DNA of 64,000 nucleotides from Nitrospira japonica (GTDB lineage Bacteria; Nitrospirota; Nitrospiria; Nitrospirales; Nitrospiraceae): the NCBI RefSeq assembly GCF_900169565.1, contig NZ_LT828648.1:1614876-1678875 (forward strand), read 5' to 3'. Shown here in pieces: positions 1 through 23,713 of this stretch; positions within the stretch are counted from its first letter, which is position 1; the number at the start of each line of letters is the position of its first letter. The translations under genes and the position numbers were made by a program. The notes under the pieces were generated by a model. The model was not told where the DNA came from and ran no database searches. It saw only the letters and a program-made list of their open reading frames with translations.

Positions 1-80
1 CGCCCGCCGTATTCACCTCTGGCAGGTCGTGCTGTCCAAGCACGGTGCGTTGGGGGGATACGAGCCGGTACGATAAGCGC

Positions 81-8242: not shown

Positions 8243-8578
8243 ATGAAGCCTCCGACACTCAAAGAATTCTTCCGGCATCTGCCCGAGAAACTCGACACAG
8301 ACGCGGCCGAAGGCCTGGAGGCCGTCTATCAGTTCGACTTGAGCGGCATCGAGGGCGGGAACTACTTCCTGACCGTCAGCCAGGGCGCGTGCCGGGTCAA
8401 CGAGGGGAAGCACGACGATCCGCATGTGACGCTGGCCATGGCGGGCGAGGATTGTATCAAGGTCCTCACCGGGCAATTGAGCGGTCAAATGGCCGCCATG
8501 TCCGGCAAGTTGAGGATCATGGGAGATCTGGGACTGGCGCTTCAATTGCGCGCGCTCTTTCCCGGTATTGGGTCGTAG
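8243..8578 (+). CDS. SCP2 sterol-binding domain protein
   Basis: A 111-aa stand-alone SCP2 domain. The pattern VYQFDLSGIEGGNYFLTV, DPHVTLAMAGEDCIKVLTGQ and MSGKLRIMGDLGLALQL matches the family (strand, strand, helix with the KLRIxGD signature). Such proteins have a hydrophobic tunnel that binds lipids or acyl-CoAs and are cytosolic. The gene is separated from the AdoMetDC-like gene by a strong hairpin and converges with the RND gene, whose stop is only 10 nt away. Its ligand is unknown. Confidence 0.8.
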   Translation: MKPPTLKEFFRHLPEKLDTDAAEGLEAVYQFDLSGIEGGNYFLTVSQGACRVNEGKHDDPHVTLAMAGEDCIKVLTGQLSGQMAAMSGKLRIMGDLGLALQLRALFPGIGS

Positions 8579-13922: not shown

Positions 13923-14315
13923 CTAGTGGTCGCGCTTTTCGTGCAGGCTGCCGGCAACGAAGTAGCGGAAGCGGTTCTGTTCCCGAAGGTTCATCCCCGT
14001 GATCATCACGCCGAAGCGATGGCCTGCCGTCCAGGTGACCTTGGCTGCGGTCACGAATAGTGGATCTTGCCCGTCGGGCAGGTAGAGGAACAGCGTCAAC
14101 TCCATTCCGGTCCTGACCGGTGTGTTTCCTCTGACCCCCAGGCCGTGCCGGGACAATGACGTGACCGTCCCGTCGCCGACCAAGACGTGGCGGCCCTCCG
14201 GCTGCGCGGAGTACATGAGGCTGAAGTTGGCGGGAACCCTCAGGTGTTCTCGCCGATTACATGGAGTGGTCTGCAGCCGCAAGGACCTGTTGGAACGGAC
14301 TTTTGTGCATCTCAT
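13923..14315 (-). CDS. PilZ-domain protein (degenerate second motif)
   Basis: A 130-aa single-domain PilZ protein. The RxxxR motif is present (REHLR within NRREHLRVP, about residue 22). The second c-di-GMP motif, normally D/NxSxxG, reads SLSRHG, lacking the acidic or Asn residue. The barrel pattern (GMELTLFLYLPDGQDP, AKVTWTAGHRFGVMI) matches the two PilZ genes upstream. It is the last of three PilZ genes in one direction, with about 25-45 nt gaps. Binding to c-di-GMP may be weakened; it could have become a ligand-independent partner. Confidence 0.8.
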   Translation of the reverse strand: MRCTKVRSNRSLRLQTTPCNRREHLRVPANFSLMYSAQPEGRHVLVGDGTVTSLSRHGLGVRGNTPVRTGMELTLFLYLPDGQDPLFVTAAKVTWTAGHRFGVMITGMNLREQNRFRYFVAGSLHEKRDH

Positions 14316-14338
14316 GATCCACCTCCTTCAAATGGCGA

Positions 14339-14728
14339 TCATCCACCGATGGACGGACGGGACGATGAATTCCAGGTGTGAAAGCGCAGCTGATTCGAAA
14401 TCTCAGGTGAGAGTGAGAGCAGTTCCACGCCGAAGCGAAGGCCGGACACCCAGGACACCCGGCATTGCGGCAGGCAGATCGGATCGTCCGTGCCAGGGAC
14501 GGTGATAAAGAGAGCGAGTTCCATCCCGCTCGTCACGCCCTGGTCGCCGCAGATGCCGACGCCGCCGTCTGAGAGGTTGGCGGTCAATCCGTCGCCCATC
14601 ACCATGCGTCCGGCCTGCATTCCCGAATACATCACGGCAAACCGACTTGGGACCCGTTCAGTGACGCGGCGAGTTGGTCTGAGGACGGCAGGATGATCAT
14701 GAGGACGGTCTGACGGATACGTGTTCAT
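14339..14728 (-). CDS. PilZ-domain protein
   Basis: A 129-aa PilZ protein with both binding motifs: RVTER near residue 20 and NLSDGG near residue 52. The barrel continues through LALFITVPGTDDP and VSWVSGLRFGVELL. I choose the second of two adjacent Met codons (14728) because GAGGGGAG is well placed before it; the first Met at 14731 and a longer reading upstream are less likely. It is the middle gene of the PilZ trio. A c-di-GMP effector role is inferred from the family; target unknown. Confidence 0.82.
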   Translation of the reverse strand: MNTYPSDRPHDHPAVLRPTRRVTERVPSRFAVMYSGMQAGRMVMGDGLTANLSDGGVGICGDQGVTSGMELALFITVPGTDDPICLPQCRVSWVSGLRFGVELLSLSPEISNQLRFHTWNSSSRPSIGG

Positions 14729-14772
14729 CATGGCTCCCCTCTGGCCGCTATCGGCCGCGATTGGTCTCATCC

Positions 14773-15189
14773 TCAGACAATGCGAAATCCGGCTCGCGTC
14801 TGTCTAGATGCGGAAAAGGTGACATGCCTCCAGATTAGTTGCTGAATCCGCTTCCGTTCTTCCGGCATCAGGTCGGGGAATTCAGCCGCAAAGGCCAATC
14901 CCTTCACTCTGGGGATTGTCACGTCCGTCAGGCAGAGGGGAGGCTGTCCATCCGCGAGATAGAGAAACAGCGTGATTCGGCTGCCTACCGGCGGGGAGAC
15001 AGTCCCTTCGATGTTGCAGCCGGATTTTGAGAGGTCCGTCAATAATCCTTCCGCCTTGAGGAGGCTCGATCCGTCCGCACTCGCATATAAGACGGGGATT
15101 CGCAGGGAGGCCCGTTCGGCATAGCGGCGATCCAACGGGGTGTAGGCTTCTTTCACATCGATGCCGAGATCCACGACCCGCTGTTTCAT
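14773..15189 (-). CDS. PilZ-domain protein
   Basis: A 138-aa PilZ protein, first of the trio. RYAER (about residue 23) and DLSKSG (about residue 52) are the two c-di-GMP motifs. LFLYLADGQPPLCL aligns with the same strand in its two neighbours, showing that the three are paralogues. The ATG at 15189 follows GGGAGGG at good spacing, so the longer upstream reading to 15240 is rejected. Confidence 0.82.
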   Translation of the reverse strand: MKQRVVDLGIDVKEAYTPLDRRYAERASLRIPVLYASADGSSLLKAEGLLTDLSKSGCNIEGTVSPPVGSRITLFLYLADGQPPLCLTDVTIPRVKGLAFAAEFPDLMPEERKRIQQLIWRHVTFSASRQTRAGFRIV

Positions 15190-15389
15190 TGAGTACCCTC
15201 CCGGCGCCTCTTTTATCGACAGGTCCACGTCAGGCGACAAGTTGAAGAGTATCGGATTTCGCGGATTTGCCCATCCCCAGGGAGGGGGAAACGGGACCCA
15301 TCGTTAGGGGGGGAGGGTCAGGAGAAATCAGCAGCCGGCCGGACGAGCGTCCAGGGCATGCATAAATACAAAGACAACGGGATGGCGGA

Positions 15390-17069
15390 TTATTGGCGCA
15401 GTTTGGCCCAGGCCTTTTGATATTCTTCGAAGGAATCGACTTCAACCCAACCTTTGAAGATCGGGACGGCTTCGACCCGTTGGCCTTGGTCGATCAATTC
15501 CTGAATCAGATCGGTAAACGAGGCTTTGACGACGGCGCCGGCTTCGTGGAACCCATCGGATTTATAGCGTTCCAGGGCGGCCCGATACCCGGCTTTGAAT
15601 GCGGCGATGCCCTTCTCGGAGAACATGGCCATACCGATGAATTCACCGTGCGCTTGGTCGTGGGGTAGATGCTGTCCGATCTTGATGATCCGATGCTCTC
15701 CGTCCGGCATGACGAATCGAGACAGATAGCTCTTGCCGGGAGCATCGGCCAGACTGACCAAATCGGGGTTGATATGGACCGGTTGCCGGTCACGCTGGCG
15801 CTCCTCCTGCCAAGCCAGATCCACGACCAGCGCGATGTCCGCCGGACTCTTCAGAAGTTTTTCGAGGATCGTGTTGTCGAAGACGATATCGCCGTACAGG
15901 ATGATCGTTCGGCCCTTCATCTCGCTTTCGGCGCAGAAGATCGAGAAGAGGTCGCCGGTTTCTTCGTAGCGGTCGTTGTCGTAGTACCGGATGTTCGGAA
16001 GGGTGATCGCCTCTTTCTTGTAGCCGCGGACGAGGGCGATCTCCTTGATGTTGCATTCGTTCAAGGCGGAGATCTGCCGTTCGAGAATCGTTTTGCCCTT
16101 GATGTCCAGCAGGCACTTGGGCATGTCTGCAATGAGAGGAAGCAATTGCTTCTCGAATCCGGCGGCCGGGATGACGGCTGTGATCTGCTCTCCGCCGACG
16201 GGAAGGAATTGACGCTCATCCCGCTCCATCTGCGGAACTCCGACGATGTCGTAGACTTCCGGCAGCGTGACGATGCGGTCGTTTGCGGCGCCGGGCCTGG
16301 TGTCCCGTTTGATGAGATCCAGCGTATCGCGCATCGCGCGGATCGCCGCGCGGACCGGCTGGTTGGCATAGATGATGATTTTTACGCCCGCGTCTTCCAT
16401 TTCCTCGGCGGTCGTCTGGTCGAAAATCGTCGGCACGACCACCAGAGGCACGCGTCCGGACCAGGCTTTGTACACCGCGCGCAGCTCATCGAATTTTTTT
16501 GACTTGGAATGGATCAAGACGGCGTCGGCACCGGCCTCCGCGTAGGCTTCCGCCCGTTTGAGGGCTTCCTCCTGCCCCCATCCGGCAATCAGGGCTTCGG
16601 TCCTGGCAATGACCATGAAGTCGGGGGAAAGCTGGGACGCTTTCGCCGCCTTGATCTTGCCGCAATGTTCGTCCACGGCAATGAGCTCGCGGCGGACGCC
16701 CGCGTAAAAGCTGCAGCGCTTGGGATAGACGTTATCCTCGATGCAAATCGCCGCGACGCCCGCCCGCTCCCGGTCGGTCACCGTGCGCATGACGTTCAGC
16801 GCGTTTCCATAGCCGGTGTCGCAATCGGCGATGACCGGAATCGAAACCGCTTCGGCGATGTTTCGTTCGACTTCAAGTTGCTCGCTGGAGGTGATGAAGC
16901 TGGCGTCCGGAATGCATTTGAGCGAAGCGGAGATGGCAAATCCGCTGGCCCATACACCGTCAAATCCCGCCCGCTCGATGAGGCGGGCGCTGAGGGCGTC
17001 GTGTGCCCCGACAACTTTCAACGCACCGGGTTTCTTAAGGGCAGCCCGAAGTTTAGCAGCGTTCGTCAT
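15390..17069 (-). CDS. aepX: phosphoenolpyruvate mutase fused to nucleotidyltransferase domain
   Basis: First committed step of phosphonate biosynthesis: PEP to phosphonopyruvate. Residues 1-~290 are an isocitrate lyase/PEP mutase barrel: Asp55, DCD (82-84) and Glu111 match the Mg-site acids. The gating loop reads EDNVYPKRCSF (111-121), where classical mutases have ED-K-x3-K-x-NS, so Lys117 is kept but Asn is replaced by Cys119. Residues ~295-559 are a sugar-nucleotide/choline-P cytidylyltransferase-like domain. Its first motif, PAAGFEKQL, lacks the usual GxGxR, though MPKCLLDI is kept. The fused domain suggests nucleotide activation of the phosphonate. It is encoded opposite to the rest of the pathway (18333-23713). 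Alternative: a lyase-like member with altered chemistry. Confidence 0.85.
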   Translation of the reverse strand: MTNAAKLRAALKKPGALKVVGAHDALSARLIERAGFDGVWASGFAISASLKCIPDASFITSSEQLEVERNIAEAVSIPVIADCDTGYGNALNVMRTVTDRERAGVAAICIEDNVYPKRCSFYAGVRRELIAVDEHCGKIKAAKASQLSPDFMVIARTEALIAGWGQEEALKRAEAYAEAGADAVLIHSKSKKFDELRAVYKAWSGRVPLVVVPTIFDQTTAEEMEDAGVKIIIYANQPVRAAIRAMRDTLDLIKRDTRPGAANDRIVTLPEVYDIVGVPQMERDERQFLPVGGEQITAVIPAAGFEKQLLPLIADMPKCLLDIKGKTILERQISALNECNIKEIALVRGYKKEAITLPNIRYYDNDRYEETGDLFSIFCAESEMKGRTIILYGDIVFDNTILEKLLKSPADIALVVDLAWQEERQRDRQPVHINPDLVSLADAPGKSYLSRFVMPDGEHRIIKIGQHLPHDQAHGEFIGMAMFSEKGIAAFKAGYRAALERYKSDGFHEAGAVVKASFTDLIQELIDQGQRVEAVPIFKGWVEVDSFEEYQKAWAKLRQ

Positions 17070-17080
17070 GATGGCCTCGC

Positions 17081-17109
17081 ATGATGCGAAAGCGCGACCC
17101 GCTTGTCAA
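17081..17109 (-). promoter_or_regulatory. candidate promoter of aepX
   Basis: Minus strand: TTGACA (17109-17104) and CATCAT (17086-17081) with a 17-bp spacer. The -10 box ends only 11 nt before the ATG at 17069, so the message would be nearly leaderless or the -10 is misplaced. A GAGG Shine-Dalgarno at 17075-17078 argues for the second possibility. Confidence 0.35.
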
Positions 17110-17136
17110 CCAAAAGTTTACGGCGGAGGCACGCAC

Positions 17137-17670
17137 TTAGAAGACTGTTGCCGAGTTGCCGTCGGCGATTTTTCCCCGTAGGGTTTGGCTCTCGAAAAAA
17201 ATGATGCCTCGATCCGCTCGATTCTCGTATCGCAGGGTGACTTCCGTTTCGAATCCTTGCCAGGCGTAAAACTTCACGGGACCGACGGAGAACTGCTCCA
17301 GGGCGTCGTCGAGCGGGCCGTAGAGTGACTGCAGATACGCCAGGATCTCGTCATGGGTTGCCTTGCCCTGGTATCGCACGGTGACCCGGGCGAACTGATC
17401 GTCGATCGTGGTGAACTTCATGGACTCCACCTGGGAAGGTCCCAGGTGCGGGGGCGCATTTTTCCCCTCATAGGTTTTCAATCGTCCGGCTTCCTCCGTC
17501 TTGCCGAAGGTTTCGGACTCCGACAATGCGGCTCCCCACGGAATCCCCTCGAATCCGTTCGGATCGTGCTGGAGAGGCACCGCAAACGCTACGAGGCTCG
17601 ACAGGAGCAGGGTCGATGCCGTTGACAGCACCCCCCGTAGAAGCACGCTGCAATAAGAGGGTTTGGCCAT
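17137..17670 (-). CDS. secreted hypothetical protein, paralogue of the adjacent gene
   Basis: A 177-aa exported protein of unknown function. The ATG at 17670 gives a signal peptide (LLRGVLSTASTLLLSSLVAFA) ending before VPLQHDPNGF. The mature part shares, in the same order as the gene upstream, DPxGFxxIxWG, QFARVTxRYxG, THxxILxYL, a GP-rich turn and RGxIFxxS. The two are therefore a tandem duplication, with 2 nt between them. Likely periplasmic. It lies between aepX and the phosphonate operon but has no phosphonate-enzyme signature. Confidence 0.65.
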   Translation of the reverse strand: MAKPSYCSVLLRGVLSTASTLLLSSLVAFAVPLQHDPNGFEGIPWGAALSESETFGKTEEAGRLKTYEGKNAPPHLGPSQVESMKFTTIDDQFARVTVRYQGKATHDEILAYLQSLYGPLDDALEQFSVGPVKFYAWQGFETEVTLRYENRADRGIIFFESQTLRGKIADGNSATVF

Positions 17671-17672
17671 GC

Positions 17673-18188
17673 TCAATCGGCTGTGTCGGCGATTTGATCG
17701 TTGAACAGAGGTGCCAGACTGCGGCTGTCGATGAAAATGAACCCGCGCTCGGTCGCTGCCTGGTAGGTCACGTTGATTTCCGAATCGGTCCCGCGCCAAT
17801 TGTACTGCTGATTGAGTCCGCGCACCATCTGCCCGGGCAGGCGTTCCACCGGGCCGAATTCTTCCTCGAGATAGACGAGAATCCGCTTGTGAGTCTGATC
17901 GCCTTTGTAGCGAATTGTGACTCTGGCGAACTGTTCGTCGACGGACGTCAACCGGACGCTTTCAACCGGGATGCCTCCGAACGACGGAGCATCACGGCTG
18001 AACTCATAGTCCCGAAGGTGGTCTCCCTCCTGCTTGACCTTCAAGTCCGGCCGTTCGGCCAACGACGAACCCCAGGCAATGTCGCGGAACCCCTTTGGGT
18101 CCTTCGTCATCGGCACGGCATGAAGGGCGTTGGGGAACCAGAGAAAAACGAATGCCAGAAGGAATAAATGTCCCGAGCGCTGTTTCAC
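17673..18188 (-). CDS. secreted hypothetical protein, paralogue of the adjacent gene
   Basis: A 171-aa exported protein from a GTG at 18188; the reading frame is open further upstream, but the start there would leave no sensible signal peptide. HLFLLAFVFLWFPNALHA is the hydrophobic core, with cleavage probably after AHA-like LHA. The mature region carries the block pattern shared with the downstream paralogue (KDPKGFRDIAWGSS, DEQFARVTIRYKG, THKRILVYL, RGFIFIDSRSL). It is divergently transcribed from the phosphonopyruvate decarboxylase operon, with a 144-bp shared upstream region. Confidence 0.6.
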   Translation of the reverse strand: MKQRSGHLFLLAFVFLWFPNALHAVPMTKDPKGFRDIAWGSSLAERPDLKVKQEGDHLRDYEFSRDAPSFGGIPVESVRLTSVDEQFARVTIRYKGDQTHKRILVYLEEEFGPVERLPGQMVRGLNQQYNWRGTDSEINVTYQAATERGFIFIDSRSLAPLFNDQIADTAD

Positions 18189-18256
18189 GGAAGGCCACCG
18201 GTATGTATGGAGCACGCTAACATGCGAAGATTCGAGGTGCAACCGTCCAGATTTCT

Positions 18257-18286
18257 TGAGAACACCTCGGTGCATGGCATATAATG
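18257..18286 (+). promoter_or_regulatory. promoter of the phosphonate operon
   Basis: TTGAGA (18257-18262) and a consensus TATAAT (18281-18286) with an 18-bp spacer, 46 nt before the ATG at 18333. Confidence 0.65.
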
Positions 18287-18332
18287 CGCGCGTTTTTCCC
18301 GTTGGGACCGCATACACGAGGAACAAGATCCG

Positions 18333-18830
18333 ATGATCGACAGCGATGCATTTGTACGGGCCATGCAGGACATGGGGGTGGATTTCTTTACCGGTGTGCC
18401 CGATTCGTTGCTCGGAGGCATCATCGCCGAGTTGATCGATCGGCATCTGTATACGCCGGCGGTACGCGAGGACGAAGCCGTGGCGATGGCCGCCGGAGCG
18501 TATATGGCCGGCAAGATTCCCGCCGTGCTGATGCAGAATTCGGGACTGGGCACGTCACTGAATACGCTCATCTCTCTCAATGTGATCTACCGGCAGCCCT
18601 GTATCCTGATCGTCTCGTGGCGGGGACAGGGTGGAAAGGATGCGCCGGAGCATCTCGTCATGGGAGAGGTGATGCCGCAATTTCTTGACACGATGAAGAT
18701 CCCTCACCGAACACTGACCGAGAAAACCGCCGTCGAGGATTTCAAGTGGGTGGCGGAGACGTTCATGAAGCAGCGCATTCCCGTCGCGCTCTTCATTGGT
18801 AAGGGTGTCGTCAAGGGACTGCACCCATGA
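18333..18830 (+). CDS. phosphonopyruvate decarboxylase, alpha (Pyr-domain) subunit
   Basis: A 165-aa TPP-enzyme Pyr domain. Together with the next gene it should decarboxylate phosphonopyruvate to phosphonoacetaldehyde, the irreversible step that pulls the PEP mutase equilibrium. VPDSLLGGII (about residues 22-31) and REDEAVAMAAGAY (45-57) are family motifs; Glu46 aligns with the Glu that activates the TPP aminopyrimidine. The single-chain enzyme is ~380 aa; here Pyr and PP domains are separate genes, as in the ComDE sulfopyruvate decarboxylases. Sulfopyruvate is therefore the main alternative substrate, but the PEP mutase and PhnW neighbours favour phosphonopyruvate. Confidence 0.85.
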   Translation: MIDSDAFVRAMQDMGVDFFTGVPDSLLGGIIAELIDRHLYTPAVREDEAVAMAAGAYMAGKIPAVLMQNSGLGTSLNTLISLNVIYRQPCILIVSWRGQGGKDAPEHLVMGEVMPQFLDTMKIPHRTLTEKTAVEDFKWVAETFMKQRIPVALFIGKGVVKGLHP

Positions 18831-18897
18831 ACCACCGAATGTCCGGGGTGTCCCCTGCGCGACGCAATCGGGACACCGTGATGAAAGGAACGATGTC

Positions 18898-19476
18898 ATG
18901 AGACCGGAGCAAGGGACTTTGATCAGCCGGGCTCAGGCCATCGGCGCCCTGTTAGAATTATTGACGGACCAGCCGGTCGTCATTTGCAATGGATTTCCAT
19001 CGCGCGAAGCGCACAAAATTGCGGACCGGGCCACGCATTTTTACATGATCGGATCCATGGGCAATGCGCCGGCGATCGCGCTGGGTGTGGCGCTGGCCAA
19101 GCCGAACAAGCAGGTCGTCACCTTCGACGGAGACGGCAACGTGCTCATGGGCATGGGGACCTTGGCCACCGTGGGCGCGCTGAAGCCGAAGAATTTCATC
19201 CACGTCGTGTTCGACAACGAAGTCTATGGGACGACCGGAAATCAGCCGACGATCTCGAATGTGGTGCCGCTGGACAAAGTGGCCAAGGCCGCCGGCTACG
19301 TGAATGTCGAGCGTGTGCGCGACCGGGAGGATCTTGTCTACGAATTCAAGGATATGCTCAAAAAGGACGGGCCCAGCATGCTGCTGGTCAAGGTCAATGA
19401 ATTCGCCGAGGATGCCGGCCGTGTCCTCCTCGAGCCGCCAGATTTAACCAAGCGATTCATGAAAGCGATAGAGTAG
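18898..19476 (+). CDS. phosphonopyruvate decarboxylase, beta (PP-domain) subunit
   Basis: A 192-aa TPP-binding PP domain, partner of the upstream Pyr subunit. The Mg/diphosphate motif is GDGN (78-81) through the downstream Asn107 in VFDNEVYG. MIGSMGNAPAIALGVALA is the usual segment before it. The ATG at 18898 is preceded by AAAGGA; a reading from 18796 overlaps the upstream gene and is not used. The two subunits lie 67 nt apart and are surely co-expressed. The active site is expected to form at the interface. Confidence 0.86.
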   Translation: MRPEQGTLISRAQAIGALLELLTDQPVVICNGFPSREAHKIADRATHFYMIGSMGNAPAIALGVALAKPNKQVVTFDGDGNVLMGMGTLATVGALKPKNFIHVVFDNEVYGTTGNQPTISNVVPLDKVAKAAGYVNVERVRDREDLVYEFKDMLKKDGPSMLLVKVNEFAEDAGRVLLEPPDLTKRFMKAIE

Positions 19477-19491
19477 GAGTCGAACCGCACC

Positions 19492-20574
19492 ATGATGTTG
19501 TTGAATCCGGGACCGGTCAACGTATCCGACAGAGTCAGACAGGCGCTCCTTCGGCAAGACATCTGTCACCGGGAGTCTGAATTCTCCGAGCTTCTGGCGG
19601 GGATTCAATCCAAGCTTCTGAAGGCCTTCGTACCGGGAGCGGAAGCCGACTATGTCGCCGTTCTGATCACCGGATCGGGAACGTCCGCCGTCGAAGCCGC
19701 CGTGCTGTCGTCCCTTCCGCACGGCAAACGCATGCTCGTTTTGAACAACGGAGTGTACGGCGAGCGCATGTCCCAGATGGTGGGGATTCACCGATTGGGC
19801 GCCTCGGAGTTGAAATTCGAGTGGACCGTGACGCCCGATCCCGAGCGATTGCGGTTGGCCCTCAGGCAGCATCCGGAAGTCCATGCCGTGGCCATGGTGC
19901 ATCATGAGACCACGACCGGATTGATCAATCCGGTCAAGGCGATCGCGGAAGTCGTCGACAGCCAAAACCGCGTATTTATTCTGGACGCCGTCAGCGCGTT
20001 GGGCGGTGAACCTCTCGATATCGCCGGAAATCACATCTACATGGTCGGCGGTACGGCGGGCAAATGCATTCAGGGATTTCCCGGCGTGTCGTTCGTACTC
20101 CTGCGGCGGGGATTCCTGGAGCGGATGCGGGCGTATCCCAAGCGCTCATGGTATCTCCATCTGACCCACTATGTGAACGATCAAGGGCAAGGGATCATTC
20201 CGTTCACGCCGGCCGTGCAGGTGTACTACGCGTTCGACGAAGCACTCAACGAACTCCTGGAAGAAGGGGTCGCCAAGCGCATCCAGCGCTATAAGAAAAT
20301 GGCGACGTTGATCCGGGAACGCATGGCTAAACTCGGCATGAAGGCGGTTCTGACACCGGATCGCCAATCCAATACCATCACCGCGTACTATCTGCCGGAA
20401 GGATTGTCCTACCAAACCCTCCATGACCAGTTGAAGGCGCAGGGCTACGTGATCTATGCCGGCCAAGGCAATCTGGAAAACAAGATTTTTCGAGTGGCCA
20501 ACATGGGGGCGTTGACCGAAGCGCAGTTTACGGCCTTTCTCGACGCCGTGGAACGGGTTTGTGCGTCCGCATGA
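19492..20574 (+). CDS. phnW: 2-aminoethylphosphonate:pyruvate aminotransferase
   Basis: A 360-aa PLP-dependent class V aminotransferase. In the biosynthetic direction it aminates phosphonoacetaldehyde to 2-aminoethylphosphonate. LLNPGPVNVSDRV and the CHRESEF block (residues 25-31) are typical of PhnW. Asp165 (FILDAVSAL) should contact the pyridine nitrogen, and GGTAGKCIQGFPG holds the Schiff-base Lys191. The family also serves AEP degradation, but no phosphonatase, PhnA-type enzyme or transporter is encoded nearby, while PEP mutase and decarboxylase are. The stop overlaps the next ATG (ATGA), indicating tight coupling to the nucleotidyltransferase. Confidence 0.88.
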   Translation: MMLLNPGPVNVSDRVRQALLRQDICHRESEFSELLAGIQSKLLKAFVPGAEADYVAVLITGSGTSAVEAAVLSSLPHGKRMLVLNNGVYGERMSQMVGIHRLGASELKFEWTVTPDPERLRLALRQHPEVHAVAMVHHETTTGLINPVKAIAEVVDSQNRVFILDAVSALGGEPLDIAGNHIYMVGGTAGKCIQGFPGVSFVLLRRGFLERMRAYPKRSWYLHLTHYVNDQGQGIIPFTPAVQVYYAFDEALNELLEEGVAKRIQRYKKMATLIRERMAKLGMKAVLTPDRQSNTITAYYLPEGLSYQTLHDQLKAQGYVIYAGQGNLENKIFRVANMGALTEAQFTAFLDAVERVCASA

Positions 20575-21290
20575 AAGCCGTCATTCTCGCCGCCGGCGTC
20601 GGTAAGCGGCTCTGGTCCGTGACCCAGCATCGTCCGAAGTGCCTGATTGAGATCGGCGGTCGGAGTCTGCTTCACCGGTATCTGCAATCACTGGGAGCGG
20701 TCGGCGTATCCCGAGCGGACATCGTCGTCGGATACAAACAGGAGCTGATCCGGTCGGCGGTGGATGCGGATTCGTGCGGGATACGGGTGAACTTTCTCGT
20801 CAATGAGCAATTCCATCGCGGCAGCATTTCTTCTCTCTGGGTGGCGCGGGCGGTCTTGGATGATGACGTCATCATCATGGACGCGGACGTGCTGTTTCAT
20901 CGTGAGATTCTCAGAAGACTGGTGAATTCCGCGTATCCCAACGCGTTGCTGATGGATGAGTCTGTCAAGCAGACCGGCGAGGAATGCATGGTGGTGATCG
21001 AGGGGGGGCGCGTCATTGCCCTGACCAAGCGTATGCCGTTGCATTACGATTACGCGGGTGAAGGCGTCGGATTTCTCAAGGTCAGGGCGGCGGATACCCC
21101 CCATATCGTGGCATCCCTGAAAACGTACGTCGATCGGGAAGCCTGGCAGATGGAATATGAGGACGCGTTGTCGGAATTCTTCAAGGACGTCAAGGTCGGG
21201 CACGAAAAAATCGGAGGTTTGCCCTGGACCGAGATCGATTTCATCGAGGACGTGGAGAGGGCCGAGCGGGACGTGTTGCCGAAACTGTGA
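20571..21290 (+). CDS. nucleotidyltransferase, probable 2-AEP cytidylyltransferase
   Basis: A 239-aa nucleotidyltransferase of the choline-phosphate/PntC type. The nucleotide-binding signature is intact: LAAGVGKRL (residues 6-14), then RPKCLIEI with the catalytic Lys. MDADVLFH is the metal-binding DxD-like segment and EIDFIEDVERAE the C-terminal acidic motif. It overlaps phnW by 4 nt. By position it should convert 2-AEP and CTP to CMP-AEP, the activated form used for tailoring phosphonates onto lipids or glycans; I infer this, the substrate is not proven by sequence. A choline-phosphate-type substrate is the alternative. Confidence 0.72.
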   Translation: MKAVILAAGVGKRLWSVTQHRPKCLIEIGGRSLLHRYLQSLGAVGVSRADIVVGYKQELIRSAVDADSCGIRVNFLVNEQFHRGSISSLWVARAVLDDDVIIMDADVLFHREILRRLVNSAYPNALLMDESVKQTGEECMVVIEGGRVIALTKRMPLHYDYAGEGVGFLKVRAADTPHIVASLKTYVDREAWQMEYEDALSEFFKDVKVGHEKIGGLPWTEIDFIEDVERAERDVLPKL

Positions 21291-21345: not shown

Positions 21346-22731
21346 ATGGGTGAAAGTCTGCTCGATCAACGGGCCGATCTGCAAGGACTCTCGACGGCCA
21401 TCCTGCTGCCGTCCGTGGACCTATTCGGCGCGCCGGTCAGAGGAGCGGTCGGGCCCCTGACGCCGATTGTGGGCATCAGTTTGTTCCAGCGCGCAGTCTT
21501 GACCTTTCAGCGGGCGGGCATTCGACAATTGATTGTGGTGGCCGGGGCGGAGGAGGAAGCGCTCAAACACGCCCTCGGTAAAGGACCTCGCGTGACGATC
21601 CCGGTGCGGTGGATGCCGATTCGGGAATTTCCGCTGGACGATCCGCGAACCTGGGAGGCTTTGGCCGCAGAAGCTCGAGGATTCTGTCTGGTGTCCGGAG
21701 CCACGGGCATCTTTTCCCGCGCCTTGGTCGAGCAACTCAGACAGGACGTCCAGGAAGGACACGCAATTGTCGTCGCACCCGGACGGCCTCGACCTGGGAC
21801 GAGTCAGGGCGATGTGGGATCGACGCGCCGCCTCGTCGAATCAGGGACGGGAGAGGCGGCGGATCTGGTGGTGCTGCCGGTCAATATCTTGAACGCTGCG
21901 GGATCAGCGACGCGCGAATCCGGCACCATTCCCGTCCGTCGGTGGATCGAGCAGGCGGCGGCGACCGGACGGTTGCGCGTGTGTTCGACCGGCTCAAACC
22001 AGGCTCAGTGGTATCGGGCGGTGCGAAACTCCCGTGACGTGCGTGCCGCGGAAAACCAGCTGTTTGCCTCGCTCAAGAGCGACCTTGAAGGTTTCGTCGA
22101 CCGGTATTTCAATCGAATCCTGTCCCGAAGGTTCACGCGGGTCTTTCTCTCGCTCGGATTGTCCCCGAACGCCGTGACGATGCTGGCCACATTCGTGGGG
22201 CTGGCTGCGGCCGCGGGATTCGCGATGGGGACATATGCCGCCGGCCTTACGGCAGCCGTATTGTTCCAACTTGCGGCGGTCATCGATTGCAGCGACGGCG
22301 AGATTGCGCGGCTGACGTTCACCGAGTCCCCGTTCGGAGCCTGGCTCGATATTGCCATGGACAATGTCGTCCACATGGCCATCTTCGGAGGAATCGCCTG
22401 GGGAAGCTACACCGCCGGTTCGGGAGATCCGTACGCCTGGGTGCCGTTGGTATTGGGGGCGGCCGCAATTCTGGGGAATGCCCTGTCATTCGGCCTGGTG
22501 GGCAAGGCTCAGAAGATCAAAGCGGCGAACGGGTGGAAGACCCTTGCGCAGGCGGCACGCTCCGAATTCATTCTGCAGAATCTGGCGAGCCGGGACTTTT
22601 CGGTCATCGTCCTGTTGTTTGCGCTCGTCGGCAGACTGGAGTGGTTTCTGTGGCTCGCGGCGATCGGATCCTTGACGTTCGCGGCGATCATGTTCTGGGT
22701 GGTTCGTTTTTCCTCGACCGGCCGTGGTTAA
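21346..22731 (+). CDS. nucleotidyltransferase-like domain fused to CDP-alcohol phosphatidyltransferase
   Basis: A 461-aa two-domain protein. Residues ~15-225 resemble a MobA-like nucleotidyltransferase but lack the GxGxR and PK motifs (LLPSVDLFGAPVRG instead), so this half looks degenerate. Residues ~245-460 form a polytopic CDP-alcohol phosphotransferase with a perfect signature: Asp314, DG (317-318), AR (321-322), Gly331, Asp335 and Asp339. It is expected to transfer a phospho- or phosphono-group from a CDP or CMP donor to a lipid or lipid-linked acceptor at the membrane. The architecture also resembles IPCT-DIPP synthase fusions, so phosphoinositol chemistry is an alternative. Context favours CMP-AEP as donor. 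Confidence 0.75.
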   Translation: MGESLLDQRADLQGLSTAILLPSVDLFGAPVRGAVGPLTPIVGISLFQRAVLTFQRAGIRQLIVVAGAEEEALKHALGKGPRVTIPVRWMPIREFPLDDPRTWEALAAEARGFCLVSGATGIFSRALVEQLRQDVQEGHAIVVAPGRPRPGTSQGDVGSTRRLVESGTGEAADLVVLPVNILNAAGSATRESGTIPVRRWIEQAAATGRLRVCSTGSNQAQWYRAVRNSRDVRAAENQLFASLKSDLEGFVDRYFNRILSRRFTRVFLSLGLSPNAVTMLATFVGLAAAAGFAMGTYAAGLTAAVLFQLAAVIDCSDGEIARLTFTESPFGAWLDIAMDNVVHMAIFGGIAWGSYTAGSGDPYAWVPLVLGAAAILGNALSFGLVGKAQKIKAANGWKTLAQAARSEFILQNLASRDFSVIVLLFALVGRLEWFLWLAAIGSLTFAAIMFWVVRFSSTGRG

Positions 22732-23713
22732 GCGGCTTCTTCTCGCCGTCGGTCTTTTCACGCTCGGGTTCCTCGTCTGGTACATCGGCCCCGCCGAGAT
22801 TTACGACGCCGTTCACAGGCTGGGTCCGGTGGCGATTCTGGCGATCCTCGCCCCTTCGTTCATCATGTATCTGGTCGAGGGGTACGGATGGAAGGTGACG
22901 CTCGAACGACCGGAACGGGTCCCGTTCTGGCGTCTGCTCATGATCCGCATGGCCGGGGAGGTGGTCAATATGACCACGCCGACCGCCTACGTCGGCGGAG
23001 AACCATTGAAGGCGTATCTTCTTCAGCGGCACGGCGTGCCCATGGTCGAGGGATTGGCGTCCGTGGTTATCGCCAAGACCACCATGACGATCGCGCAAGT
23101 CTTGTTCATCATCGTCGGGATCGGCGTCGGCTTGTGGATTCTGGGGCCTGACGGCTCGCCCGGTCAGATCATCACGGCAGCCCTCCTCAGTCTGGGATTG
23201 TTGCTCTTCGGGACGGGGGCGTTTGTGTTGGTGCAGCGACGGGGTCTTTTTACCTGGACATTAGAGCTGATCCGGAAGCTCGGCTGGCGGATTGCGTTTC
23301 TGGAGCGACGGGAAGAACAACTCCGATCACTCGACCGGACAATCCTAAATTTCTATACGAGACGCCGGGGGATGTTCTATCTCTCAACAGGACTGTACCT
23401 TCTGGGATGGCTGGCTGAAGCCATCGAAGTCTATGTCATTATCTATTGCCTCGGCGGCTCGGCTGATATGTTGTCGGCGGTTTCGATCGGCGCGTTATCG
23501 GTTTTAATCAAGGGAGGAACCTTCTTTATTCCCGGAAGCCTGGGTGCGCAGGATGCAGGCAATTTGCTGCTGCTGCGCGCGTTCGGCTACAGCGAAGTCG
23601 TCGGAGTCGCATTCGCGCTCTTGCGGCGGTTTCGTGAACTGGTCTGGATCTCCGTTGGGCTGCTGTGTTTGACGCTGATCGGTAAACCGCAAGGATCGGC
23701 GAATGATTCCTAG
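22724..23713 (+). CDS. LPG-synthase TM / YbhN-type membrane protein, possible flippase
   Basis: A 329-aa polytopic protein of the lysylphosphatidylglycerol synthase transmembrane/UPF0104 family, without the catalytic LPG-synthase domain. About eight hydrophobic segments can be counted. NMTTPTAYVGGEPLKAYLL (about residues 86-104) and GGTFFIPGSLGAQDAG near 265 are conserved family patterns. A GTG start overlaps the preceding stop by 8 nt, so it is coupled to the CDP-alcohol transferase. MprF- and HpnL-type relatives act in lipid translocation or hopanoid handling; here a role in moving the product lipid across the membrane is inference. Confidence 0.72.
   Translation: MVKRLLLAVGLFTLGFLVWYIGPAEIYDAVHRLGPVAILAILAPSFIMYLVEGYGWKVTLERPERVPFWRLLMIRMAGEVVNMTTPTAYVGGEPLKAYLLQRHGVPMVEGLASVVIAKTTMTIAQVLFIIVGIGVGLWILGPDGSPGQIITAALLSLGLLLFGTGAFVLVQRRGLFTWTLELIRKLGWRIAFLERREEQLRSLDRTILNFYTRRRGMFYLSTGLYLLGWLAEAIEVYVIIYCLGGSADMLSAVSIGALSVLIKGGTFFIPGSLGAQDAGNLLLLRAFGYSEVVGVAFALLRRFRELVWISVGLLCLTLIGKPQGSANDS

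Follow-up and report, generated by a model that had tools for sequence, protein, structure and literature searches.

A tandem pair of apparently secreted paralogues tied to a putative 2-aminoethylphosphonate locus in Nitrospiraceae

Gene content of the locus

The window, which is the whole 64,000-nucleotide stretch of Nitrospira japonica DNA analysed here (contig NZ_LT828648.1), contains two adjacent paralogous genes, A and B, located between a gene for a PEP-mutase-like fusion ('aepX') and a divergently oriented operon that begins with a split decarboxylase. The genes are arranged as follows.

13923-15240: three tandem PilZ-domain genes, between aepX and the TetR-MFP-RND genes
15390-17069, minus strand: 'aepX', 559 aa, PEP-mutase-like domain fused to a MobA-like nucleotidyltransferase (PF13714 200.9 bits, PF12804 37.8 bits)
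17137-17670, minus strand: gene B, ATG start, 177 aa, paralogue of A
17673-18188, minus strand: gene A, GTG start, 171 aa, apparently secreted
18333-18830, plus strand: ppdA, alpha part of a split phosphonopyruvate/sulfopyruvate decarboxylase
18868-19476, plus strand: ppdB, beta part of the split decarboxylase
19492-20574, plus strand: AEPT, 2-aminoethylphosphonate aminotransferase-like (TIGR03301 352.6 bits, cut-off 360.8)
20559-21290, plus strand: stand-alone MobA-like nucleotidyltransferase
21346-22731, plus strand: CDP-alcohol phosphatidyltransferase, whose N-terminal part is a degenerate nucleotidyltransferase-like region
22724-23713, plus strand: flippase-like membrane protein (LPG_synthase_TM / HpnL-like)

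Beyond the PilZ genes, TetR, membrane fusion protein (MFP) and RND transporter genes, named by sequence reading, lie on the same strand as A and B. Judging from their sequences, the genes of the locus probably make the phosphonate 2-aminoethylphosphonate (AEP). At the level of profile scores the split decarboxylase is similarly placed between phosphonopyruvate and sulfopyruvate decarboxylases: the former model (TIGR03297) gives 129.5 bits for ppdA and 176.5 bits for ppdB, its cut-off of 312.5 applying to the whole protein, and the sulfopyruvate decarboxylase alpha and beta models give 111.4 and 185.4 bits, both under their own cut-offs. In the available excerpt of Rice et al. (2019; PMC6697681), AEP surface-tailoring clusters combine genes for a mutase-like/nucleotidyltransferase fusion, a decarboxylase and an AEP transaminase, as does the window. 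In contrast to the clusters described in that excerpt, the window has a split ppd, a CDP-alcohol transferase together with a flippase-like gene, the secreted A/B pair, and a mutase domain without the EDKxxxxxNS motif.

The A/B gene pair

The TGA of A and the ATG of B are spaced 2 nt apart, and the two products are 39% identical (60% positives) over 135 ungapped residues (BLASTP, E 2e-37), a sequence likeness that is far above chance. Three blocks occur in both proteins, namely DPKGFRDIAWG in A and DPNGFEGIPWG in B, QFARVTIRYKG and QFARVTVRYQG, and RGFIFIDS and RGIIFFES. Both N-termini, read by eye, show a hydrophobic stretch and an alanine followed by a mature 'VP..DP' start (LHA-VP in A, AFA-VP in B), and no lipobox was seen by eye in either, which is consistent with A and B being Sec-exported soluble periplasmic proteins. 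Family searches returned no families in NCBIfam, no matches in PHROGs or among PDB sequences, and only chance matches in Pfam (E 0.083 and 0.24, under the curated cut-off). The first-pass annotation had described a tandem paralogous minus-strand pair, 2 nt apart, with three shared ordered blocks, signal peptides on both proteins and no recognised family, and this description stands throughout, the apparent secretion being read by eye. A literature search on Nitrospira phosphonates, AEP and PEP mutase found no description of an A/B-ppd locus, judging by titles and abstract openings.

A loop of the form PGQMxRGLNQQYxWRG is well conserved among A genes, and its PG is lost in the B of the window. 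A third paralogue in the same genome (G000:C1:2636092) is B-like and 51% identical to B. In preparing the alignment from 80 named loci, 14 A/B sequences were skipped, two were put aside for length and the B of L138 was omitted from A3. In the 64-row alignment the polar or aromatic residues R66, Y71, H77 and W108 are invariant, as might be expected if A and B were enzymes acting on an exported lipid, for example in AEP head-group transfer to LPS. However, neither a catalytic motif nor a family match could be recognised, and with distant members included only G, F and W residues stay invariant; an enzymatic role appears very unlikely.

Linkage to the ppd operon and shared promoter region

The best 80 among the named loci were picked by A-derived patterns and are biased to A-like genes; almost all of them carry Nitrospira or Nitrospirae in their titles. 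In 77 of them ppdA lies divergently upstream of A, heading an operon ppdA-ppdB-AEPT(-nucleotidyltransferase-CDP-alcohol transferase-flippase-like). The other three comprise two contig edges ending at A and one gapped assembly (L131), and all three genomes hold AEPT. As a truly ppd-less locus L131 was rejected: upstream there is a run of unknown bases, A and a PilZ ORF form an in-frame fusion, and the AEPT of this genome is found at a contig start. Within the window's family (f1), A/B and AEPT share a contig in 62 of 62 genomes, with 61 of the distances within ~2.5 kb and one, in G244, of 4.6 kb (coordinates compared by eye). The link of A/B to the ppd operon in Nitrospiraceae is real, and the pair is firmly tied to the AEP locus there.

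In the sister family (f3), A follows lpxC (named by reading) in six of the seven loci read (L074, L076-L079 and L197; the exception is L075), and ppd genes were found elsewhere, in L192, L193 and L194, which derive from genomes with A, and in L205 of G263. This arrangement favours a rival reading, itself quite possible, that A and B are general LPS/outer-membrane housekeeping proteins that play no part in phosphonate metabolism and are tied to the ppd operon of Nitrospiraceae by no more than a common promoter region.

The genes on the other side of the pair suggest a second alternative, namely that A and B assist the products of the co-directional TetR-MFP-RND efflux genes as accessory proteins in the periplasm. 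Most of the longer loci carry homologues of these genes downstream in the same orientation, in 16 of the 80 loci no other query gene separates TetR from the second A/B gene, and L131 keeps PilZ-TetR-MFP though ppd is not upstream. Nevertheless, in those 16 loci 41 to 391 nt separate the pair from the first matched residue of TetR, insertions of other genes are frequent, the L131 assembly has a gap, and no RND block was seen next to A in the f3 loci read, which together make the efflux explanation unlikely.

The regions between and behind the genes contain the following promoter-like features.

18189-18332, between the divergent genes: intergenic region with a back-to-back sigma-70-like promoter pair
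within 18189-18332, minus strand: promoter toward A, TTGCAC-17-TAGCGT
18256-18285, plus strand: promoter toward ppdA, TTGAGA-18-TATAAT
17109-17081, minus strand, within the spacer 17070-17136: putative aepX promoter TTGACA-17-CATCAT, preceded by AAACTTT

The A/ppdA promoter-like pair is conserved. The pattern TTGnnn-16..19-TATAAT toward ppdA is present in all 78 regions (77 loci plus the window) and TTGnnn-16..18-TAGCGT toward A in 66, with both together in 66 of 78 and 12-17 nt separating the two -35 boxes in 65 of these 66; the corresponding values for dinucleotide shuffles are 0.1 (toward ppdA), 0.0 (both) and 0.0 (-35 spacing). As the patterns were picked after viewing the same regions and the loci are related, these counts express conservation and not 78 independent cases. 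At the position of the putative aepX promoter, TTGACA recurs in 13 of the 17 listed spacers shorter than 130 nt from other loci, out of 26 loci with this gene type. The -10 site of the window's aepX ends 11 nt before the ATG, and its mRNA may be nearly leaderless.

Distribution across genomes

A profile of 20 rows (A1) was searched in a 245-genome draw of the phylum and matched 84 genomes, comprising 62 of f1, 14 of f3 and eight distant ones in other Nitrospirota families. All 62 f1 genomes and 14 of the 15 f3 genomes thereby contain homologues of A/B, G263 being the f3 genome without a match; the f1 total follows from the absence of f1 from the first 20 of the 161 non-matching genomes, taken in order of kinship, and from the AEPT search, which also counts 62 f1 genomes. 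The AEPT query matched 78 of the 245 genomes, i.e. all 62 of f1, all 15 of f3, and G183. The co-occurrence with phosphonate genes that the first-pass annotation had proposed to examine was thus observed for the close homologues, as AEPT was found in every f1 and f3 genome with A/B, though the genomes of f1 and f3 share ancestry and their counts are non-independent events. Housekeeping alone explains neither the constant association of A/B with AEPT (62 of 62 f1 genomes) nor the retention of the promoter pair. The eight distant genomes with A/B gave neither AEPT nor mutase-fusion matches in the 245-genome searches.

Among 41 nearer genomes, single-protein searches at E up to 1 matched 37 with A and 38 with B, the window's own genome included and a few matches being weak. 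The AEPT query at E 1e-40 also matched 37 of the 41; in G033 and G039 the identity is only 30%, which is what a second, paralogous transaminase shows. Distant A/B homologues and close AEPT are distributed differently in families f2 and f4: G028, G033, G036 and G039 carry distant A/B homologues (26-32%) without a close transaminase, and G030 and G037 carry the transaminase without an A/B match below E 0.02.

An atypical mutase-like fusion

The EDKxxxxxNS loop is the PEP mutase motif according to the excerpted text of PMC6697681, and the aepX of the window lacks it, its loop being IEDNVYPKRCSF (EDNVYPKRCSF). The loop EDNxxPKRCSF was also read in 14 relatives, in seven further loci (one of them already counted) and in 21 named loci, and the canonical loop was read in L097, L198 and all 20 fetched loci. 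The closest solved relative of aepX is the PEP phosphomutase 5unc (287.6 bits), followed by phosphonopyruvate hydrolase (247.1 bits), the mussel mutase (222.9 bits) and methylisocitrate lyases (at most 133.9 bits).

With types assigned by identity level, the 41 genomes comprise 23 with the atypical fusion, 11 with a canonical-type fusion (35-41% identity), seven with neither and none with both; in the overlapping set of 245 genomes, at E 1e-70, 18 are atypical, 56 canonical and again none carries both. In f1 and f3, each of the 17 atypical genes stands directly downstream of an A/B gene (by eye, 245-genome draw). Of the 55 canonical fusions in f1 and f3, 54 belong to genomes that have A/B, and each of these is either on a different contig or separated from A/B by more than 40 kb, the nearest (G203) at 45 kb. 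In the stretches read from other families, the atypical gene is solitary (four genomes of f2, one of f4 and one of f8; L196 and L200-L204). A dependence of A/B on the neighbouring aepX was ruled out, since 41 of the 62 f1 genomes have a canonical-type fusion away from A/B, five have neither type, and a promoter-like block of its own precedes aepX.

That the two types exclude each other does not establish mutase activity for the atypical one. In our reading of the sequences, aepX would be an atypical mutase that the canonical type has repeatedly displaced. A lyase-like activity is also conceivable, as the Cys is placed as in the lyase-type KKCGH loops of G003 and G016. According to the same excerpt of Rice et al. 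(PMC6697681), sequences without the motif were removed as presumed non-Ppm, 22 of them being fusions. The atypical fusion suggests that surveys based on EDKxxxxxNS may undercount phosphonate producers.

Two further arrangements were noted. In the f3 locus L079 (G038) the atypical mutase follows the lpxC-linked A gene and the ppd operon is elsewhere, which suggests that the adjacency of A and the mutase may predate that of A and ppd. Near the canonical mutase, a second, less similar ppd-like gene is found in four of the 20 fetched loci (L210, L211, L215 and L223), where the canonical enzyme may belong to a different pathway.

Genomes with A/B and an apparently incomplete pathway

Three genomes with a listed completeness of 100%, the congeneric G024 and G242 together with G016, carry A/B, ppdA, ppdB and AEPT (loci L072, L199 and L069), and searches of them detected neither a mutase fusion nor, at E 1e-10, a homologue of the CDP-alcohol transferase. 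They have partial PF13714 matches of 31.6-36.6 bits, and neither an EDKxxxxxNS nor an EDNxxPKRCS loop was seen among their PF13714-scoring proteins; G016 contains a stand-alone PF13714-scoring protein of 302 aa with the lyase-type loop EDQESPKKCGH. The less complete G012 (76%) likewise gave neither a CDP-alcohol transferase homologue (E 1e-10) nor a mutase fusion. G236 and G256 are also without the mutase fusion, but have the CDP-alcohol transferase.

Given G024, G242, G016 and G012, a dependence of A/B on lipid formation is unsupported. That neither a mutase-loop protein nor a CDP-alcohol transferase homologue was found in the first three implies that A/B are there independent of an AEP lipid made in that way, and, as far as their gene content can be read, ppd-AEPT and A/B in these genomes must serve another task or use a product from outside. 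The first-pass annotation had linked the pair to an exported phosphonate product; of this proposal the genomic tie stands, in the form of the conservation beside ppd-AEPT and the promoter pair, and the exported product is weakened by these three genomes. The persistence of A/B without a mutase and lipid transferase favours the housekeeping reading.

Evolution and the wider family

In a tree of 57 rows, from which one G004 fragment without the motif had been dropped, 29 rows form an A side that includes the single-copy f3 genes, 21 rows form a B side and three rows fall outside both. The two sides have supports of 94 and 88, and 14 of the 54 inner branches are starred. An old duplication into A and B is likely from this topology. 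Solo copies fall on the B side in five of six cases, the sixth, L099, being on the A side; such extra copies away from the locus also speak for the housekeeping reading. Near the window, B is the less stable gene, as G006 retains a remnant matching 56 residues and G002 has no adjacent copy, and the A of G004 is broken by an in-frame TGA.

Distant members with the GF..W frame were found in other Nitrospirota, in Aeromonas caviae KAM479 and on a Hymenobacter plasmid. Six distant Nitrospirota loci (L186-L191, 4-19 kb each) have no phosphonate genes nearby. The Aeromonas member (L206:4932-5438), an uncharacterised protein that looks secreted, lies among portal- and capsid-like ORFs, named by reading, in an apparent prophage, and the Hymenobacter member lies among toxin-antitoxin and restriction genes, with phosphonate genes absent nearby. 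No family member was found when the Aeromonas protein was searched against a phage collection, and A had no match in plasmids. The Aeromonas protein and that of G262 (L186) share with A/B the GF-x-x-x-W-G motif, a long helix ending in YG or HG, Y-x-W, and a strand pair with a late G, at hhalign probabilities of 90.9% (Aeromonas) and 98.1% (G262), but differ in their ~19-29% identity and in a PGQ-RG loop that is short or missing; their loci differ in that no phosphonate gene was recognised in the stretches read.

The broad family, with its signature GF-x-x-x-W ... W, is itself not a phosphonate family, and its Nitrospiraceae branch is tied to the locus. Homologues widespread without a phosphonate locus, which the first-pass annotation had named as evidence against its proposal, were thus encountered among distant homologues only (the eight Nitrospirota genomes, Aeromonas, Hymenobacter and some f2/f4 genomes). 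The housekeeping reading is again favoured by distant homologues of this kind.

Predicted structure of A

An AlphaFold2 model of A based on 64 rows (pLDDT 88.3, pTM 0.84) predicts an alpha/beta domain with strands within residues 26-72, a helix at 74-88, strands within 104-132 and a helix at 136-146. The only interior block of low confidence is 91-100 (pLDDT 58). Conservation among 34 A-type rows is 0.82 for this block and 0.94 for 101-110, compared with ~0.75 over all blocks, and this low-confidence conserved stretch of the model might resemble a binding loop.

No match to the model was obtained with Foldseek at E 0.001, the best having E 0.056. With VIA-align, double-wing and Mog1-PsbP-like domains show a similar alpha/beta arrangement, led by E. 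coli YdcD (8wj5) at Z 8.0 over 110 residues, a level that the tool terms common or middling, followed by RhsI1 (6xtd, 6.1), the TagH C-terminal domain (5bnd, 5.6) and PsbP (2vu4, 4.2), PsbP/Mog1 domains in general scoring 4-5. Unlike these proteins, however, A has no PDB sequence match, the similarities lie below Foldseek significance, and function does not transfer; no fold is assigned to A on this basis. A literature search on the double-wing domain found nothing relevant to A. The structure prediction suggested in the first-pass annotation as a search for a lipid or phosphonate pocket thus yielded a confident alpha/beta model with weak fold matches, in which loop 91-100 is a candidate binding site.

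The same comparison bears on the idea that A and B form a periplasmic sensor of phosphonate or phosphate status that controls the ppd operon. The model is weakly similar to GntR/HutC effector-binding domains, including PhnF, and the divergent layout with a shared promoter region would suit such a control. Yet a Z of ~4 is not meaningful, both promoters resemble plain sigma-70 sites, and no signalling partner gene was recognised by reading in the immediate neighbourhood, so that a sensor function seems the most improbable of the explanations weighed here.

A possible periplasmic partner of the AEP pathway

The best single guess is that A and B act as a periplasmic partner of the AEP/envelope pathway, with a probability of somewhat less than 0.4, the housekeeping explanation being nearly as likely. 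In this scenario the duplicated pair would be the periplasmic arm of the divergent ppdA-ppdB-AEPT locus in Nitrospiraceae, probably co-expressed with the operon from the back-to-back promoter pair. The cytoplasmic enzymes would make AEP, charge it with CMP, place it on a lipid and flip the product, and in the periplasm A (and B) may use the flexible PGQMxRGLNQQYxWRG loop to bind the aminophosphonate head group or its carrier, presumably as a binding or hand-over module and not as an enzyme. The proposal draws on the observed conservation and linkage, on the conserved promoter-like pair and on the fold model, which resembles, weakly, partner-binding domains (YdcD, RhsI1 and PsbP/Mog1).

It is also conceivable, although doubtful as a whole, that Nitrospiraceae possess an AEP-lipid envelope pathway in which the C-P bond is formed by a PEP mutase without EDKxxxxxNS (the loop Asn being replaced by Cys) that is interchangeable with canonical mutases, and in which A/B handle the exported head group. 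To our knowledge, no periplasmic component of the A/B kind is known from any AEP-lipid envelope phosphonate pathway. As apparently secreted proteins kept with AEP genes throughout a family of important nitrifiers (nitrite-oxidising, Nitrospira-type), A/B provide a direct handle on the export side. The steps that place phosphonates on cell surfaces were described in 2019 as largely unknown, in the excerpt of PMC6697681.

Similar short proteins with a sterol-carrier-like (SCP2-type) look, as judged by eye, are encoded beyond the RND gene of the window (8243-8578) and beside the atypical mutase in an f2 locus (L202:8539-8877).
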